DNA from: an uncultured Flavobacteriaceae bacterium
GTDB lineage: Bacteria; Bacteroidota; Bacteroidia; Flavobacteriales; Flavobacteriaceae
Length of the DNA stretch: 64,000 nucleotides
Assembly: GCA_913052585.1 (NCBI GenBank)
Contig: CAJXEB010000005.1
Location: 1-64,000, forward strand
Direction of reading: 5' to 3'
Shown here: in pieces, positions 17,911-27,866 of the stretch
How positions within the stretch are numbered: position 1 is the first letter of the stretch
Layout of the letters: each line of letters starts with the position of its first letter
Translations under genes and position numbers: made by a program
The notes under the pieces: model-generated
The model's database searches: none
Told to the model about the DNA's origin: nothing
What the model saw: only the letters and a program-made list of their open reading frames with translations

Positions 17911-18141
17911 ATGCTGTCTATTGCATCTCTAGAAATTGGGCAACGAGCTATTATAAAAGACTTCTCTGTAGATGTAGTCCCATTAAAATTATTAGAGATG
18001 GGATGCCTTCCAGGTAATGAAGTAACTTTAATCCAAGAAGCTCCTTTTAAAGACCCATTATACCTTACCATTAATGGCAGTCATTTAGCTATCAGAAAAG
18101 ATATGGCTTGTAAAATTGAAATTGAACTCATTAATGGCTAA
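17911..18141 (+). CDS. feoA: ferrous iron transport protein A
   Basis: 76-aa SH3-like FeoA: LEIGQRAIIKDF...LKLLEMGCLPGNEVTLIQEAPFKDPLYLTINGSHLAIRKDMA; overlaps feoB. Confidence 0.93.
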   Translation: MLSIASLEIGQRAIIKDFSVDVVPLKLLEMGCLPGNEVTLIQEAPFKDPLYLTINGSHLAIRKDMACKIEIELING

Positions 18142-20233
18142 ACAAATAAATGTTGCACTTATTGGTAATCCAAATACGGGAAAAACCTCTGTTTTTAATA
18201 TCCTCACTGGACTTAATCAAAAAGTTGGAAATTATCCAGGCATTACGGTTGAAAAAAAACAAGGAACCTGCCAATTTGAAAGAAATCTAAAAGCGCATAT
18301 CATTGATCTTCCGGGAACTTATAGTTTAAATGCGTCTTCCTTAGATGAAAATGTAGTTATAGAATTACTCCTGAATAAAAATGATAAAGATTATCCAGAT
18401 GTAGCTGTCGTTATCGCTGATATTGAGAATTTAAAAAGAAACTTACTTTTATTTACACAAATAAAAGACCTTGGTATTCCCACCATTTTAGCTATCAATA
18501 TGGCTGACAGAATGAAACGGAAGGCAATTTCATTAAATATTAAAGAATTAGAAGAAAAGTTAGGAACCAAAATTGTTTTAATAAGTTCCAGAAAAATAAC
18601 TGGGATTGAAGAGTTAAAAGATTTGATTTCAAATTACAAATCACTGTCTTTAGCACCTTGTGTAAATGCATCTAAGATCGCACCTGAATATTTTGAACGC
18701 CTTCAAAAAACTTTTCCAAATCAAGATTTATATAAATTATGGTTGGTAGTTACCCAAGATGTTAATTTTGGGAAATTAGATAGAAAGGAAATAAATGGAA
18801 TCCACTCCTTTCAAACAGAATCTATAGGTAATCTAAAACGATTACAGCAAAAAGAAACCATTGCTCGTTATCAATTTATTAATGATACTCTAAAGGAAAC
18901 ACTATCAATTGATCAGAAAAATGCAAAAGATTTAAGAAGTAGGTTTGATAAAATATTAACTCATAAGGTTTGGGGGTATGTAATTTTCTTTTCCATTTTA
19001 TTATTGATTTTTCAAGCTATATTTGATTGGAGTACCTATCCAATGGACTTTATTGATAATTCGTTTACATCGTTAAGTGAATGGCTAAAAATCAATTTAC
19101 CTCCTGGCGAGTTTTCAAGTTTAATTACGGAAGGCGTTATACCTGGACTTGGAGGAATTGTAATTTTTATACCACAAATTTCCTTTTTATTTTTATTCAT
19201 TTCCATTTTAGAAGAAAGTGGTTATATGAGTCGTGTGGTCTTTTTAATGGACAGAGTTATGCGTCGTTTTGGATTAAGCGGAAAAAGTGTTGTACCACTA
19301 GTTTCCGGAACCGCTTGCTCAATTCCTGCGATTATGGCTACTAGAAATATTGAAAACTGGAAAGAACGTCTTATTACTATTTTAGTAACACCATTTATTA
19401 CTTGTGCAGCTAGATTACCTGTTTATTTAATAATCATTTCGTTGGTTATTCCAGAAGGCCGAGTATTGGGCATTATTAGCTTACAAGGGTTGACTCTTTT
19501 AATTTTATATGGATTGGGTTTTGGTTCTGCAATTGCTGCAGCTTATACCTTAGACAAATATTTACATGTAAAAAGTAAATCATTTTTTGTGATTGAAATG
19601 CCAAATTACAAACTACCCATGTTAAAAAATGTGGCTATTACCGTTTTAGAAAAAACGAAAGCATTTGTATTTGGAGCTGGTAAAATAATATTAGCAATTT
19701 CAATAATTCTGTGGGTTTTGGCTTCTTATGGTCCTGGGGATTTCAATCAAGCTGAAGAAGTTGTTTTACAACAAATCGAACAACAAAATTTATCTCAAGA
19801 AGAGCTAGATATTAAAATCGCATCTTTTAAATTAGAGAATTCATATATAGGTATTGTAGGAAAGTTTATAGAACCTGCCGTAAGACCTTTAGGATTCGAT
19901 TGGAAAATAGGTATTGCTTTAATTAGTTCTTTCGCAGCAAGAGAAGTATTTATTGGAACACTTGCTACCATATATAGTGTTGGAAATGATGATGTAGAAA
20001 CCATAAAAAATAAAATGGCTTCTGAAATTAATCCCTCCAACGGAGAACCTTTGTTTAATTTAGCCAGTGGTATTTCTCTTTTATTGTTTTATGCTTTTGC
20101 GATGCAATGTATGAGTACCTTAGCTATTGTAAAACGAGAAACTAATTCATGGAAATGGCCAATGTGGCAATTAGTATCAATGACAGCGCTAGCATATATT
20201 GCTGCTTTAGCAGCTTATCAAATCCTTAAATAA
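18134..20233 (+). CDS. feoB: ferrous iron transporter B
   Basis: GNPNTGKTSVFN (G1), DLPGTYSL (G3), gate motifs SGTACSIPAIMATR; MAKQIN chosen as start (track ORF begins 18116). Confidence 0.96.
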   Translation: MAKQINVALIGNPNTGKTSVFNILTGLNQKVGNYPGITVEKKQGTCQFERNLKAHIIDLPGTYSLNASSLDENVVIELLLNKNDKDYPDVAVVIADIENLKRNLLLFTQIKDLGIPTILAINMADRMKRKAISLNIKELEEKLGTKIVLISSRKITGIEELKDLISNYKSLSLAPCVNASKIAPEYFERLQKTFPNQDLYKLWLVVTQDVNFGKLDRKEINGIHSFQTESIGNLKRLQQKETIARYQFINDTLKETLSIDQKNAKDLRSRFDKILTHKVWGYVIFFSILLLIFQAIFDWSTYPMDFIDNSFTSLSEWLKINLPPGEFSSLITEGVIPGLGGIVIFIPQISFLFLFISILEESGYMSRVVFLMDRVMRRFGLSGKSVVPLVSGTACSIPAIMATRNIENWKERLITILVTPFITCAARLPVYLIIISLVIPEGRVLGIISLQGLTLLILYGLGFGSAIAAAYTLDKYLHVKSKSFFVIEMPNYKLPMLKNVAITVLEKTKAFVFGAGKIILAISIILWVLASYGPGDFNQAEEVVLQQIEQQNLSQEELDIKIASFKLENSYIGIVGKFIEPAVRPLGFDWKIGIALISSFAAREVFIGTLATIYSVGNDDVETIKNKMASEINPSNGEPLFNLASGISLLLFYAFAMQCMSTLAIVKRETNSWKWPMWQLVSMTALAYIAALAAYQILK

Positions 20234-21156: not shown

Positions 21157-22317
21157 TTAGCCTCTAAACAAGAAAAAATCATCTTTCATATGTTCGATTT
21201 TTTCATCTGTATTGGTAATGATATAATCTATAGCAAGATTTGTAAATTCCTGACCTTTTTCTGTTAAATTCACTATTTCTTGATCTATCAATATTAGGTT
21301 GTTTTTTAGTGCTAAATCTAATATTTTTTTTGATTTCAACTTATGCCAATTTATATGTTCATTTAAATGATTAATATGGCGTTCAGTAGTATCAGAATGA
21401 TTATTTAAATGTAGCATAAAAGTAAGTAACATCACTTCCTTTTTTTGTTGTTTATGCATTAATATAACAGAAATTAATCCCTTATTCGGTGCTGTTAGAT
21501 ATACAATTAAGAATAAAACTCCTAAGATTGTGGTTATTGAACCAGATATTGATGCGTCCAAAAAATGAGCTAACCAATAACCTCCAAGAGCAGAAATAAT
21601 ACCAAAGAGTATTGACAAGAACAGCATTTTTTTCAAGTTTGACGTAAGCAAATATGCTGCAGCTGCTGGTGCAATCATTAAAGCCACTACGAGTATCGCA
21701 CCAACTGCATCAAATGCTCCAACTACTGTAATTGAAGACACTGACATTAACCCGTAATGTAATAATACTGGAGAAAACCCTAATGCTGATGATAATCCTG
21801 CATCAAAAGTACTCACCTTTAATTCTTTAAAAAATAAAAACAATAAAATACAAGTAGTTATTAATATGGTCCCCATAACCCAAAGAGATTTTGGACCAAA
21901 ATCTTGCTCACCTATGAGAAAACGATCAAATGGTGCAAAAGCCAATTCTCCTAATAAAACTGCATCAATATCTAAATGAACATCATTAGCATTTTTAGCT
22001 ATAAGCAATACACCAATACTAAAAAGGATAGGGAATACTAGACCTATAGCGGTATCTTCTTTAACTAAACCTGTTTTTTGTATAGCTTCAACTAAAATCA
22101 CAGTAATAACTCCAGAAAGTGCTGCAAATAAAATTAATAATGGTGAATTTAAATCATGTGTAATAAAAAAACCTAGTACTATTCCTGGTAAAATAGAATG
22201 ACTAATAGCATCACTAATAAGCGCCATTTTACGCAATACCAGGAAAACTCCAGGAATGGCACAAGCTATTGCTACAACAACAGCAATAAGTTGTATTTCA
22301 ATTTGTGGTATTGTCAT
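21157..22317 (-). CDS. metal ABC transporter permease (ABC-3 family) with His-rich C-terminal winged-helix-like extension
   Basis: ABC-3 core (LRKMALISDAISHSILPGIVLGF; VGAILVVALMIAPAAAAYLLT) plus about 100 aa extension ending NLTEKGQEFTNLAIDYI. Confidence 0.9.
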   Translation of the reverse strand: MTIPQIEIQLIAVVVAIACAIPGVFLVLRKMALISDAISHSILPGIVLGFFITHDLNSPLLILFAALSGVITVILVEAIQKTGLVKEDTAIGLVFPILFSIGVLLIAKNANDVHLDIDAVLLGELAFAPFDRFLIGEQDFGPKSLWVMGTILITTCILLFLFFKELKVSTFDAGLSSALGFSPVLLHYGLMSVSSITVVGAFDAVGAILVVALMIAPAAAAYLLTSNLKKMLFLSILFGIISALGGYWLAHFLDASISGSITTILGVLFLIVYLTAPNKGLISVILMHKQQKKEVMLLTFMLHLNNHSDTTERHINHLNEHINWHKLKSKKILDLALKNNLILIDQEIVNLTEKGQEFTNLAIDYIITNTDEKIEHMKDDFFLFRG

Positions 22318-23437
22318 TTTCTATTTCGTTTTGTATAAACATGGTCGTGGCTTGACGATATCCTTTTTGGGTAAGTGACCAGTTTTGCCCAGATATTAAA
22401 ATGAATTCTTTTGTTTCAAGTTGTTTTAATGTTTTAACTGTAAATCCGTAAAAATTATTTAATATTTTAATAGCGTGAGGATGCTCTATATTAGTATGAT
22501 CTTTTGCTATTTCATACATAAATAACAATGTTTTATTATGATGTAGTTCTCTTCTATTCTGACGGAATTTATATTCTCTCATGAGTAAGCCTCTTTTGTG
22601 AGAAAATACAAATGAAAAAAACACAAAACAGCCAGCAATAAGCACAATCACAGGACCTGTTGATAAATTATTTTGACTCGCACTAATAGCAGTCCCCACT
22701 ACTCCTGAAAATGCACCAAAAATAGCTGCTAAACCAACCATGACACTTAATCTATTAGTCCATTGTCTTGCTGCTGCTGCTGGAGCTAAAAGCATTGCAC
22801 TCATAAGTACTACTCCTACAGTTTGTAAGCCTAAAACTATCGCTACTACAATAAGGAAGGTTATAAGAATATCTAATAACTTTGTATTAAACCCTAAGGT
22901 ATTTGCATATTCAGCATCAAAAAGTAGTATTTTAAATTCTTTCCAAAAGAGGAGTAATATAAACAAACTAGCAGTAGTTACTAACAATAGAATTTGAACA
23001 TCTTTTTCAATTAATGTTGCTGCTTGACCAAATAAGTATTTATCCAATCCTGCTTGATTGGCATTGGGTTGCTTTTGGATAAATGTTAACAATAACATCC
23101 CAAAACCAAAAAATAATGATAAAACCAAACCTAATGCAGTATCACTTTTAAGATGCGTTTTTGTGACCATAGAACGGATCCAAAATGTCCCTATTAAACC
23201 GCTTACAAGTGCACCTAAAAGTAAAACATTAGAATCCTTTGTCCCTGTTATTAAAAAAGCAATTGCAATACCTGGCAATGCAGCATGTGAGATTGCATCA
23301 CCTAATAAGCTTTGTTTTCTTAAAACAGCAAAACTTCCAAGCATTCCACAAATAGCTCCTAATAAGGCAGTTCCTAAACTAATCGTACGCAAGGTATAAT
23401 CTGAAAAAAGTAATGAAAAGTATTCTGAAAAACTCAT
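22298..23437 (-). CDS. metal ABC transporter permease (ABC-3 family) with C-terminal winged-helix-like extension
   Basis: LRKQSLLGDAISHAALPGIAIAFL; VGVVLMSAMLLAPAAAARQWT; extension ...LTQKGYRQATTMFIQNE; overlaps the next gene. Confidence 0.9.
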   Translation of the reverse strand: MSFSEYFSLLFSDYTLRTISLGTALLGAICGMLGSFAVLRKQSLLGDAISHAALPGIAIAFLITGTKDSNVLLLGALVSGLIGTFWIRSMVTKTHLKSDTALGLVLSLFFGFGMLLLTFIQKQPNANQAGLDKYLFGQAATLIEKDVQILLLVTTASLFILLLFWKEFKILLFDAEYANTLGFNTKLLDILITFLIVVAIVLGLQTVGVVLMSAMLLAPAAAARQWTNRLSVMVGLAAIFGAFSGVVGTAISASQNNLSTGPVIVLIAGCFVFFSFVFSHKRGLLMREYKFRQNRRELHHNKTLLFMYEIAKDHTNIEHPHAIKILNNFYGFTVKTLKQLETKEFILISGQNWSLTQKGYRQATTMFIQNEIENDNTTN

Positions 23438-24174
23438 TATTTATTTATAGCTACTTTATAATTTATCCCATAAGTTTTTGTAAGGTTATCATCATTAAAT
23501 ATATCTTTTACAGGCCCTGTGGCTATTTTTTTTACATTTAAAAAAGTAACCCAATCAAAATATTCTGGAACAGTTTGCAAATCATGATGAACAACCACGA
23601 CCGTTTTCCCAGATTTCCGTAATTCTTTAAGTATATTTATAATGGCGATTTCTGTAGAGGCATCAACCCCTTGAAATGGTTCATCCATAAAATATATTGA
23701 GGCATTTTGAACTAAGGCTCTTGCAAGAAATATTCGCTGTTGTTGACCACCACTTAATTGACTTATCTGGCGATTTTTAAAAGAAAGCATTCCTACTTTT
23801 TCTAGCGCTTCTAGTGCTTGTTTCTTTTCTTTAATTCCTGGTCTTTTAATCCATCCTAAATCCCCATAAGTACCCATTAAAACAACATCCTGTGCAGTAG
23901 TCGGAAAATCCCAATCTACACTACCCTTTTGTGGTACATACGCTACTAATTTTCTTTGTTTACTATAAGGTTTATCATAAATAGAAATGCTACCAGCAAT
24001 GGGTTTTATTATTCCTAAAATTGATTTAATTAAAGTTGATTTTCCTGCACCGTTTGGACCAACAATTGCCATTAAAACTCCTTCGGGTATTTCTAAATCT
24101 ATATCCCATAAAACAGGTTTATAATTGTAAGCTACCGTTAAATCGTCTACACGAACTGCAATTGAATTTTTCAT
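23437..24174 (-). CDS. metal ABC transporter ATP-binding protein
   Basis: GPNGAGKST Walker [16 protein letters not shown] signature, [11 protein letters not shown] Walker B. Confidence 0.95.
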
Positions 24175-24179
24175 CTAAA

Positions 24180-25082
24180 TTATTTTAATGCATTTACAAT
24201 CGTAGTAACATTATGTTTATACATACCTAAATAGGTCCCTTCTGAAGAACCTTTGTTGCCCAAAGCATCACTGTATAAAGATCCGCCAATTTCCACCTGA
24301 TGTCCCTTAGATTTAACAGCTTCTCTAAGAGCTTCTATCGTTCTTTGAGGAACAGAACTTTCAACAAAAATTGCTTTTACATTGTTAGTAATAATAAATT
24401 CTGAAAGTTTCTGGACATCTTGAACACCAGCTTCCGTAGCAGTAGATAACCCTTGTAATCCAACAACTTGAAATCCAAAAGAGGCTCCAAAGTAGTTAAA
24501 GGCATCATGTGCGGTTACTAAAATTCTTTTCTCTTTTGGCAATTGATTAATTAATTGAGTTAATTCAATTTCTAACTCATTTAATTTTCTGACAAATTCT
24601 TTACTATTTTCAGTATAGAATAATTTATTTTTTGGATCTTCCGTTATTAAAGTATTGGCAACTTGTTCTGCAAATAATTTAAAAAAAGAAATATCAAACC
24701 AAACATGTGGGTCGTAATTAGAAGCAAAATACTCAGAGCCTATTAATTTATCTTCAGGTAACTTATTAGCGAGACCAATTTGCTTTTTTTGTTTCATTTT
24801 TTCAAAAACCTCAACTAATTTACCTTCTAAATGTAAACCATTATAAAATATGATATCAGCCTCATAAAGTTTAGAAACATCACCCTCACTAGCTTTGTAT
24901 AAATGAGGGTCAACTCCCGCCCCCATAAGTCCATTTACTTCAATTGAATCTCCACCAATGATCGAAACCAAATCGGTTATCATGGTAGTGGTGGTTACTA
25001 CCTTAAGCTTATTAGATTTCTTTTCATTTTCCTTGCAACTAAAAATTGTAAGGACAATAATGATTAGGAATATTTTTCTCAT
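24180..25082 (-). CDS. metal (Zn/Mn) ABC transporter substrate-binding lipoprotein, ZnuA/TroA family
   Basis: Lipobox IFSCKEN; GAGVDPHLYKASEGDV, DPHVWFD, TAHDAFNYFGASFGFQVVGLQG. Confidence 0.94.
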   Translation of the reverse strand: MRKIFLIIIVLTIFSCKENEKKSNKLKVVTTTTMITDLVSIIGGDSIEVNGLMGAGVDPHLYKASEGDVSKLYEADIIFYNGLHLEGKLVEVFEKMKQKKQIGLANKLPEDKLIGSEYFASNYDPHVWFDISFFKLFAEQVANTLITEDPKNKLFYTENSKEFVRKLNELEIELTQLINQLPKEKRILVTAHDAFNYFGASFGFQVVGLQGLSTATEAGVQDVQKLSEFIITNNVKAIFVESSVPQRTIEALREAVKSKGHQVEIGGSLYSDALGNKGSSEGTYLGMYKHNVTTIVNALK

Positions 25083-25089
25083 AATACTA

Positions 25090-25296
25090 TTAATTTGGAA
25101 TTCTATAACTTACACCTGCACTAAGTAAAAGGTCTTGATTTCCTGTAAACCTTGTTCCTGTTGTTACATCTACTTGTAAGTTATTTTTTATTAAATAAGT
25201 TAATTCTGCATCGCAAGAGTGATTAGACCTGTCATTAACTGGGGAATTTCCAGAAACTTCTCTATAAACAGATAATTTACCTGTTATACCATAACC
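25090..25296 (-). pseudogene. C-terminal fragment of an outer-membrane transporter-like protein (Phenol_MetA_deg-like)
   Basis: Frame GYGITGKLSVYREVSGNSPVNDRSNHSCDAELTYLIKNNLQVDVTTGTRFTGNQDLLLSAGVSYRIPN*, preceded directly by an in-frame stop at 25297-25299; no start. Confidence 0.65.
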
Positions 25297-25435
25297 TTAT
25301 GATACCGGATTGAATATCCGTAGTTACTGACTTAAAGGCACTTGTCTTTCAATTTATCATAAAACGCTATTCAAAGATATTAATTTTTGATTTAATACAG
25401 AATCCGCAACTAGGTATATTTATTGTTGTAGCCAG

Positions 25436-27754
25436 TTATTTTGACATCATTTTAATTCCAACATAAATAGTTCTTGGAAGTGAAGGACCAAAGACAAAAT
25501 TACTATCTCTGTTTTTTCCAAGATCAAAGTTTGATTGATAGGAATTAAAAATATTTTTCACACCACCATAAAACTCTAGTTTTGATTGCATTTTTTCAAT
25601 TTCAATAGTATAACCAATCTTTGCGCTTAATTCCGAAAACGCATCTGAAGTATACATTTCATCGACCAATTGATTTGGTGCACCTGCAAAATGAGGCATA
25701 ATCATTTTACCTGTATATACGTAATTTAGGTTAGCACTAAGTTTCTCATTTGGAGTAAAGGATAAAGTTGCATACCCATAATCATTAGGTGTTCTTGTAA
25801 ATTCTCTTATACCTTCAACTCCTTCTATATATTCAACAGCGTCATCAAATTCACTCGACTGTACTGTAAAACCTGTTTCTAATTGTATTTTTTTATCGAA
25901 ATTGGCTCTTAATTCTAAAGTGACACCTTGCACAGTTGCTCCTTGTCCGTTTTGTTTTTCAAATAATTCACCAAAGTCGTCTTGTCCTATTGGCTGAAGA
26001 AAAAACGCATCATTTAATCTTGTATAAAACCCTTCTAATGTAAAACCTACTATATAATGTTCTGTTGGTTTATCAAAATTTATTGAAGCACTATAACTTT
26101 GTGATTTTTCTGGAATTAAATCTGGTGATAATGAAACACGTGAAATACCACCACCTGAAAAAGCAATATGTAAATCTGTGTCAAATGCTTGTGGTGCTCT
26201 AAATCCTGTTCCATAACTAAATCTAAATTGTGTGTTAGCTTTATATTTGTAAAGCAATGATAACCTTGGGTTAAAAACTAAATTATCAATCAAGTTGTGT
26301 TTATCCACTCTTACTCCAGACAGAAAAGTAAATGAAGGTGATATTTCCCAGTCACTTTGTAAAAACGAGCCAAAATTTTTGGTGGTTTGATCAATTAAAT
26401 AGTTGTATGTAGAAATTTTATCATAAACATCATCATATAAATATTCGGTTCCTAAAGTAAAGGTATTTGTTCCCTTGATAAAGTCATATACTTTATGATT
26501 AAGTTGAAATCCTCCTTGTAAAGTAGTAACGTTTGAAGTTCCATAAGGTGGATTTTCAAGATGCGCTTGGATTTCTGGTTCTTCATCTGGGAATATCCCT
26601 GTATAATGTTTTCGTTTAGTATTTTGCCAAGCCGCATAGGAAATGAATGAAGAATTATCATCATTAAAATTAATTTGATAATCTGCACTTCCCATCCAAA
26701 CATTGGTTGATCTTTCTTCTGATTGTTGAGTTAAATATGCTGGTCCTTCTACCATTTCACCACCAAATCTATATTCATTTAAATTACTGATGCTAATTTC
26801 TAATTTCTCGTTGTCACTAGGTAAAAAGAATAAGTTTGTACCAAACGAAGTGTTCTCTAATTTTGGCAACTCCGAATAATTATCATCATTATCATCATAC
26901 CAATCTCTCTCTCTATGGTTAAAAAAGAAGGCAATTCCCGAATTCTTATTTTCAGAAACTAAAGAAGCATTTCCACTAAGAACTATATCGTCTGCTTTTC
27001 CGTTTATATTTTGATAAAAAGAATTTAATTCATAGGAGTTTTTTTTGGGAACTTTGGTAATAACATTTACAGTTCCACCTATTGCGCTAGAACCGTATAA
27101 TGAAGAACCGCCACCTCTTACAACTTCTATTCTATCAATCATATTTGTTGGCAATTGTTCTAAACCATACAAACCTGTTAATGGACTAAAAATAGGACGG
27201 CCATTAATAAGAATCTGAGAATATCCACCTGCCAAACCATTCATTCTTAATTGTGTATAGTTGCAGGTTTGGCAATCTGTTTCAACTCTTAAACCTGGTT
27301 GAAATTTTAACCCCTCAGACAGGTTACAGGCTTGTACATTATTTAAAGTTGCACTATTAATAATGCCAACAATTACAGGTGAATTTGTTTGTCTTTTATA
27401 TGTTTTTGTACCAGTTATTACAATTTCGTCAAGTGAGTTTAAATTTTCATCTAAATTAAAGTTTAACTCTAATTTTTGATTGTTTTCATTTAATATAACA
27501 GTTTTAGTAACTTTTGTATATCCTACAAATGATGCTGTTACTGTGTAAGTTCCGAAAGAAATATTTTCGATATGAAAATGTCCTTTAGAGTCTGTGATTA
27601 TACCTTTTACCGGATTTGTAGATATAGAAATGGTTGTAGATTCTTGTTTGTTATTATCCACTCTAACAGTTCCATGAATAGTCCCTTCTTGCCCGAATGA
27701 AAGGTTGAATATGCTTATTGCAAATAGTAGTGATAAAGTTAATTTTAAATTCAT
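25436..27754 (-). CDS. TonB-dependent receptor with N-terminal carboxypeptidase-regulatory-like domain
   Basis: GTVRVDNNKQESTTISI... domain; plug motifs LRMNGLAGGYSQILINGRPIF...VVRGGGSSLYGSSAIGGTVNVITK; C-terminal barrel. Confidence 0.95.
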   Translation of the reverse strand: MNLKLTLSLLFAISIFNLSFGQEGTIHGTVRVDNNKQESTTISISTNPVKGIITDSKGHFHIENISFGTYTVTASFVGYTKVTKTVILNENNQKLELNFNLDENLNSLDEIVITGTKTYKRQTNSPVIVGIINSATLNNVQACNLSEGLKFQPGLRVETDCQTCNYTQLRMNGLAGGYSQILINGRPIFSPLTGLYGLEQLPTNMIDRIEVVRGGGSSLYGSSAIGGTVNVITKVPKKNSYELNSFYQNINGKADDIVLSGNASLVSENKNSGIAFFFNHRERDWYDDNDDNYSELPKLENTSFGTNLFFLPSDNEKLEISISNLNEYRFGGEMVEGPAYLTQQSEERSTNVWMGSADYQINFNDDNSSFISYAAWQNTKRKHYTGIFPDEEPEIQAHLENPPYGTSNVTTLQGGFQLNHKVYDFIKGTNTFTLGTEYLYDDVYDKISTYNYLIDQTTKNFGSFLQSDWEISPSFTFLSGVRVDKHNLIDNLVFNPRLSLLYKYKANTQFRFSYGTGFRAPQAFDTDLHIAFSGGGISRVSLSPDLIPEKSQSYSASINFDKPTEHYIVGFTLEGFYTRLNDAFFLQPIGQDDFGELFEKQNGQGATVQGVTLELRANFDKKIQLETGFTVQSSEFDDAVEYIEGVEGIREFTRTPNDYGYATLSFTPNEKLSANLNYVYTGKMIMPHFAGAPNQLVDEMYTSDAFSELSAKIGYTIEIEKMQSKLEFYGGVKNIFNSYQSNFDLGKNRDSNFVFGPSLPRTIYVGIKMMSK

Positions 27755-27789
27755 TTTTTTTTTTTTAATTCACAAATTGTTTTATGATG

Positions 27790-27820
27790 CAAATATAATA
27801 AGTTAGACTAATCTAACAAA
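27790..27820 (-). promoter_or_regulatory. promoter of the TonB-dependent receptor
   Basis: On the minus strand: TTTG (27817-27820), 19 nt, TATATTTG (27790-27797), the Bacteroidota -33/-7 pattern. Confidence 0.65.
27802..27817. promoter_or_regulatory. putative DtxR/MntR-type operator
   Basis: Perfect inverted repeat GTTAGA-CTAA-TCTAAC between -33 and -7 of the receptor promoter, next to the divergent DtxR-family gene. Confidence 0.6.
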
Positions 27821-27866
27821 GATGTTTTGACATTATTTTTTTTATCTTTGCCTTTTAATTTATCAT

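Follow-up and report, generated by a model that had tools for sequence, protein, structure and literature searches.

An inverted repeat situated between the divergent genes for a TonB-dependent receptor and a DtxR/MntR-type metalloregulator, in the genome of an uncultured Flavobacteriaceae bacterium, is, judging from comparisons with related genomes, very probably the operator at which that regulator would act as a repressor; the metal sensed is likely to be manganese. The stretch of DNA analysed here (hereafter, the window; 64,000 nt) corresponds to positions 1-64,000 of the forward strand of contig CAJXEB010000005.1 in assembly GCA_913052585.1, and its relevant features are listed in Table 1.

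A predicted operator within the receptor promoter

The arms of the repeat GTTAGA-CTAA-TCTAAC (27802-27807 and 27812-27817) are fully complementary, but the central CTAA is only partly symmetric and 14 of the 16 positions are thus symmetric; the description of the element as a perfect palindrome in the original prediction holds for its arms and its coordinates, but not for its centre. The claim that it occupies the 19-nt spacer of a Bacteroidota-type promoter proved correct: on the minus strand, 19 nt separate TTTG (27820-27817) from TATATTTG (27797-27790) and the repeat falls within this interval, with position 27817 being at once the outermost base of one arm and the last base of TTTG. The receptor promoter has the boxes and the approximately 19-nt spacing of a sigma-ABfr promoter, TTTG / TANNTTTG being the primary promoter consensus in Bacteroidota (PMC6847099); the combination TTTG-N19-TANNTTTG has four occurrences in the window, where 1.26 would be expected. 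In the convention used for F. johnsoniae, the -7 box spans positions -12 to -5 (PMC6847099). The transcription start site of the receptor gene would accordingly be near 27785, about 5 nt beyond the -7 box and not about 7 nt as first proposed, with a leader of about 31 nt, and the operator would extend from about -17 to -32.

By itself, the palindrome is unremarkable and within chance: a repeat with 6-nt arms and a 4-nt loop arises in 12% of shuffled versions of the 112-bp intergenic region (P ~0.12), and 49 such repeats are present in the window. Since the repeat alone is not unusual, the case for an operator rests on comparison.

Table 1. Features of the receptor/regulator region (positions in the window)
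Feature	Position	Strand	Remarks
DtxR/MntR-type metalloregulator, 218 aa	27867-28523	plus	Pfam PF01325, PF02742, PF04023
Regulator -7 element TATCTTTG	27843-27850	plus	TAnnTT invariant in 16 relatives
Receptor -33 element TTTG	27817-27820	minus	CAAA on the plus strand kept at the same offset in relatives
Candidate operator GTTAGACTAATCTAAC	27802-27817		Inverted repeat, 6-nt arms and 4-nt centre; arms kept in relatives
Receptor -7 element TATATTTG	27790-27797	minus	Fixed distance from the operator kept in relatives
TonB-dependent receptor, 772 aa; presumed regulated target	25436-27754	minus	Pfam plug and barrel; carboxypeptidase-like N-terminal domain
ZnuA/MntC-family metal-binding protein of an ABC importer	24180-25082	minus	PF01297; AztC/EfaA/MntC-like, below curated cut-offs
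ABC ATPase, Mn/Fe type	23437-24174	minus	Sub-threshold NCBIfam matches, the best being to Mn/Fe ABC ATPases
ABC-3 family permease	22298-23437	minus	PF00950
ABC-3 family permease	21157-22317	minus	PF00950

Conservation of the site beside related regulators

Of 109 related regulators, 86 have the motif TTAG-N6-CTAA in the 300 bp preceding the gene (Markov shuffles gave a mean of 1.04 and a maximum of 5), mostly 50-80 bp before the regulator start, and the remaining 23 lack it in that interval. It adjoins orthologous as well as paralogous regulators across Bacteroidota. When the intergenic regions of 16 close relatives were aligned, without selection for the motif, the invariant columns fell in the two arms (GTTAG and CTAAC), in the -7 boxes of receptor and regulator, each of which was largely invariant, and in the -33 box, which was partly so; the receptor -33 and -7 boxes keep their fixed 19-nt spacing around the operator. 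The original prediction had been made to depend on conservation of the palindrome in orthologous intergenic regions, and the palindrome and the receptor boxes are indeed what is conserved there. It is this conservation, and not the repeat itself, that places the palindrome beyond chance.

Two patterns were also searched for in 201 genomes of the host's family. Just three copies of the 16-mer GTTAGAYTARTCTAAC turned up, each beside the regulator, and WTTAGAYTARTCTAAW yields 23 sites in 21 genomes, 15 of which lie 50-75 bp upstream of a homologous regulator; the reversed control pattern of WTTAGAYTARTCTAAW has matches in nine genomes (a hand tally from two tables). Within the host genome, the full 16-mer operator is found once, so that regulation is probably local. 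A search for further sites, as originally suggested, thus recovered the motif near orthologous and paralogous regulators but no other full 16-mer in the host, and a genome-wide regulon was rejected, the looser matches being no commoner there than those of the reversed control.

The outer base pair of the operator varies with the recognition helix of the regulator. The clade to which the regulator of the window belongs has Pro37 and mostly Asn40 in the helix and an outer G..C pair; among Pro37 regulators this pair is G..C in 54 of 61 cases and T..A in none, whereas all 24 regulators with Ser37 and Thr40, which form a paralogous clade of about 40% identity, have T..A. There is no crossing over between the clades. 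Tenacibaculum has both: a regulator of the window's clade faces an Fe-type superoxide dismutase (SOD) gene with a G..C operator, and the second regulator faces a receptor orthologue with TTTAGTCTAGRCTAAA. Because the outer pair changes together with the helix, the operator is tied to the regulator, with the proviso that the covariation may reflect few evolutionary events and that phylogeny limits the number of independent cases. Conservation and linked change together support the earlier view of the repeat as a putative operator of the adjoining regulator.

Genes facing the regulator in relatives

In most relatives the divergent gene codes for the orthologous receptor (at least 50% identity) or for another TonB receptor. 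At other loci, the same operator precedes the gene for an MntH-type Nramp transporter (L068), a ZnuA-type ABC operon (L106) or a receptor gene followed by one for a ZupT-like ZIP protein (L064); FeoB is encoded at L125 and L126, with the operator motif only at the former. The receptor gene is followed by one for the peroxide-stress protein YaaA at L077 (775-1539) and L091 (760-1521). In Polaribacter irgensii and in a Winogradskyella MAG, a NiSOD operon (L062:3205-3699 and L063:3211-3705) is divergent from an orthologous regulator, 81% and 80% identical to that of the window, and has the same operator; at L063, a small His-containing ORF precedes the NiSOD gene and a peptidase-like ORF follows it. 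In two Tenacibaculum (L122, L128), an Fe-type SOD gene is found under the same operator. The genomes with a NiSOD or Fe-type SOD target have a Mn-type SOD elsewhere, as called by similarity to the SOD of the host genome, itself closest to Mn enzymes among proteins of solved structure. Finally, the divergent gene at L099 (2698-3924), and probably also at L092, codes for a di-haem oxidoreductase. In orthologues, the operator is found upstream of genes for Mn transport or Mn-sparing functions, as for an MntR-like regulator.

The host genome codes for one DtxR-type regulator, two Fur-type regulators and one Mn-type SOD; an Nramp transporter was not found in this assembly, which is about 84% complete. 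An operator-like sequence, TTAGATTAATCTAT, lies 110 bp upstream of the Mn-type SOD gene, just beyond the end of the window (G000:C5:65593-65606; L040:1501-1514). It is also present in two near relatives, in which the whole region is conserved, and absent from more distant ones.

The regulator and the metal it may sense

The divergent gene had been said to code for a DtxR/MntR-type regulator, and three Pfam domains confirm this: the full-length protein has an N-terminal winged helix, a metal-binding and dimerisation domain and a C-terminal FeoA (SH3-like) domain, with PF01325 (59.6 bits) and PF02742 (89 bits) both above cut-off. A second family trait, that a palindromic operator should overlap a metal-uptake promoter, is seen in the presence and conservation of the predicted site. 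By sequence, the closest relatives of solved structure (PDB chains) include SloR and ScaR. The best NCBIfam match (NF047407; 134.9 bits) falls short of the MntR equivalog cut-off of 350.

The metal-site residues H77, E81, H96, E103, H104, D124 and H126 are invariant among relatives and E100 is nearly so. The ligands of the binuclear MntR site are Asp8, Glu11, His77, Glu99, Glu102 and His103 (PMC4805248). The regulator shares with B. subtilis MntR the Mn-type Glu-Glu-His cluster (E100, E103, H104) and H77 but differs from the canonical binuclear site by N8 and K11, since Asn8 and Lys11 stand in place of Asp8 and Glu11 in nearly all 109 relatives. Nor does it have the iron-specific primary site of DtxR and IdeR (Met10/Cys102/Glu105/His106), the first two positions being N8 and E100. 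With N8 and K11 replacing D8 and E11, selectivity for Mn is unreadable from the sequence. We therefore place the protein in the DtxR/MntR family and regard it as MntR-like by the logic of its predicted targets, while making no claim that it is a canonical MntR.

That logic favours manganese: the simplest reading of a repressor that would restrain both the uptake of Mn and the SODs that do without it is as a sensor of manganese, and with these targets a Mn-responsive repressor fits better than an iron sensor. The fit is imperfect, in that the di-haem oxidoreductase at L099 does not point to manganese; it may indicate iron in that lineage. It is unlikely, although not negligibly so, that the same repressor at the same operator senses iron instead, in the manner of DtxR or IdeR, and controls a siderophore-type receptor. 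In addition to L099, this would accord with the resemblance of the TTAG-N6-CTAA core to the iron box TTAGGTTAGGCTAACCTAA of DtxR, IdeR and DmdR1 (example sites in PMC7174319), with the invariance of the ancillary-site positions H77, E81 and H96, and with FeoB being encoded 8-10 kb away within the window. Yet iron starvation would then turn on an iron-type SOD, which makes little sense, whereas induction of Fe- and Ni-type SODs by Mn shortage is sensible; moreover, position E100 carries the MntR residue, Glu, and not the Cys of DtxR, and the two Fur homologues are already present for iron. In addition, Mn tightens the binding of PgMntR (PG1044) of P. gingivalis to the promoter of feoB2, the gene for a Mn transporter, whereas Fe weakens this binding and releases the protein (PMC4805248).

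That zinc is sensed, the downstream importer being a zinc transporter, is improbable: AztC, a zinc protein, is the top NCBIfam match of the binding protein and a ZupT-like ZIP protein is encoded after the receptor at L064, but the best matches of the ATPase are Mn/Fe ABC ATPases, and MntH and SOD targets are unlike a zinc regulon. Still less probable is a primary role at the regulator gene, through activation or autoregulation, with the site falling within the receptor promoter only incidentally. The -7-like element proposed for the regulator is borne out by its conservation in the 16 relatives, and no canonical -33 box is found at 19 nt from TATCTTTG; in this promoter the operator would span about -53 to -38, where an activator could act, and the site persists at loci where something other than a receptor gene is divergent. 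The fixed 19-nt -33/-7 spacing around the operator in close relatives is instead the geometry of a repressor. A functionless chance palindrome, of a size common in AT-rich DNA, is already contradicted by the comparative data, given conservation far above expectation and the linkage to the regulator that whole-genome scans revealed, and can be given next to no credence.

A model for control of the receptor and its neighbours

In the preferred model, a manganese-responsive repressor, with enough metal (most likely Mn(II)), would bind as a metal-loaded dimer to GTTAGAnnnnTCTAAC between the -33 and -7 boxes and so would keep RNA polymerase off the receptor promoter; upon metal shortage, the repressor would leave and the receptor would be made. 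The receptor would probably supply the ABC importer encoded downstream by bringing the metal through the outer membrane.

The genes for the binding protein, the ATPase and the two permeases lie downstream of the receptor gene on the same strand and may be co-transcribed with it; the binding protein is possibly co-regulated with the receptor. The 353-bp gap between receptor and binding-protein genes (25083-25435) may hold another promoter. It contains a broken reading frame, which suggests a decayed gene; by eye, the end of the frame seems outer-membrane beta-barrel-like (...LLLSAGVSYRIPN-stop, minus strand). Both permeases (21157-23437) have C-terminal extensions of about 100 aa past the ABC-3 domain, winged-helix-like by eye, for which a Pfam search gave no match. 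Some 8-10 kb away, a FeoA-like ORF is followed by FeoB (17912-20233); no operator copy with up to two mismatches was found upstream of these ORFs.

Relation to known systems and significance

PgMntR, the characterised example found for Bacteroidota, is likewise a DtxR-family regulator that is linked to its own transport gene (FeoB2) and whose DNA binding is strengthened by Mn. Its FeoA domain is duplicated and its site 1 contains Asp19/Cys108, in contrast with the single FeoA domain and Asn8/Glu100 of the window's family; it was tested on a 385-bp promoter fragment only, and the passages of PMC4805248 consulted leave the operator undefined. With DtxR, IdeR and DmdR1, the present system shares the family and the TTAG...CTAA half-sites, but its operator is a simple 16-bp palindrome and not a 19-bp iron box, and Asn8/Glu100 take the place of Met10/Cys102. 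The streptococcal Mn repressors ScaR and SloR, which control Mn ABC importers, are near sequence relatives with the same three-domain layout; the regulator of the window differs by Asn8 for Asp7 and Asp124 for Cys123 of ScaR, by the Bacteroidota promoter and by the TonB-receptor target. B. subtilis MntR lacks a C-terminal FeoA domain, unlike the regulator of the window. Known members have Asp or Met where the predicted metal site here has Asn8.

A literature search, mostly among papers outside subscription, gave no direct precedent for an MntR operator in Bacteroidota, for a manganese receptor of the TonB type or for an MntR linked to NiSOD. The principle, a metal repressor in the promoter of an uptake gene, is familiar; the operator and its targets appear undescribed for Bacteroidota. 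We consider evenly balanced the broader proposal of a widespread Bacteroidota family of Mn-responsive repressors with a metal site that, unusually, contains Asn and with TTAGAYTARTCTAA as operator, the local targets of which would define TonB-dependent manganese receptors, and in which some lineages would swap a Mn SOD for a Ni or Fe SOD when Mn is scarce. The comparison offers an exact predicted operator for Bacteroidota DtxR/MntR regulators and, in the two regulator clades, a natural specificity-swap system. It also provides a candidate outer-membrane manganese receptor in a phylum about whose uptake of manganese little is known, and points to induction of Ni- and Fe-type SODs as possible manganese-sparing substitutes.
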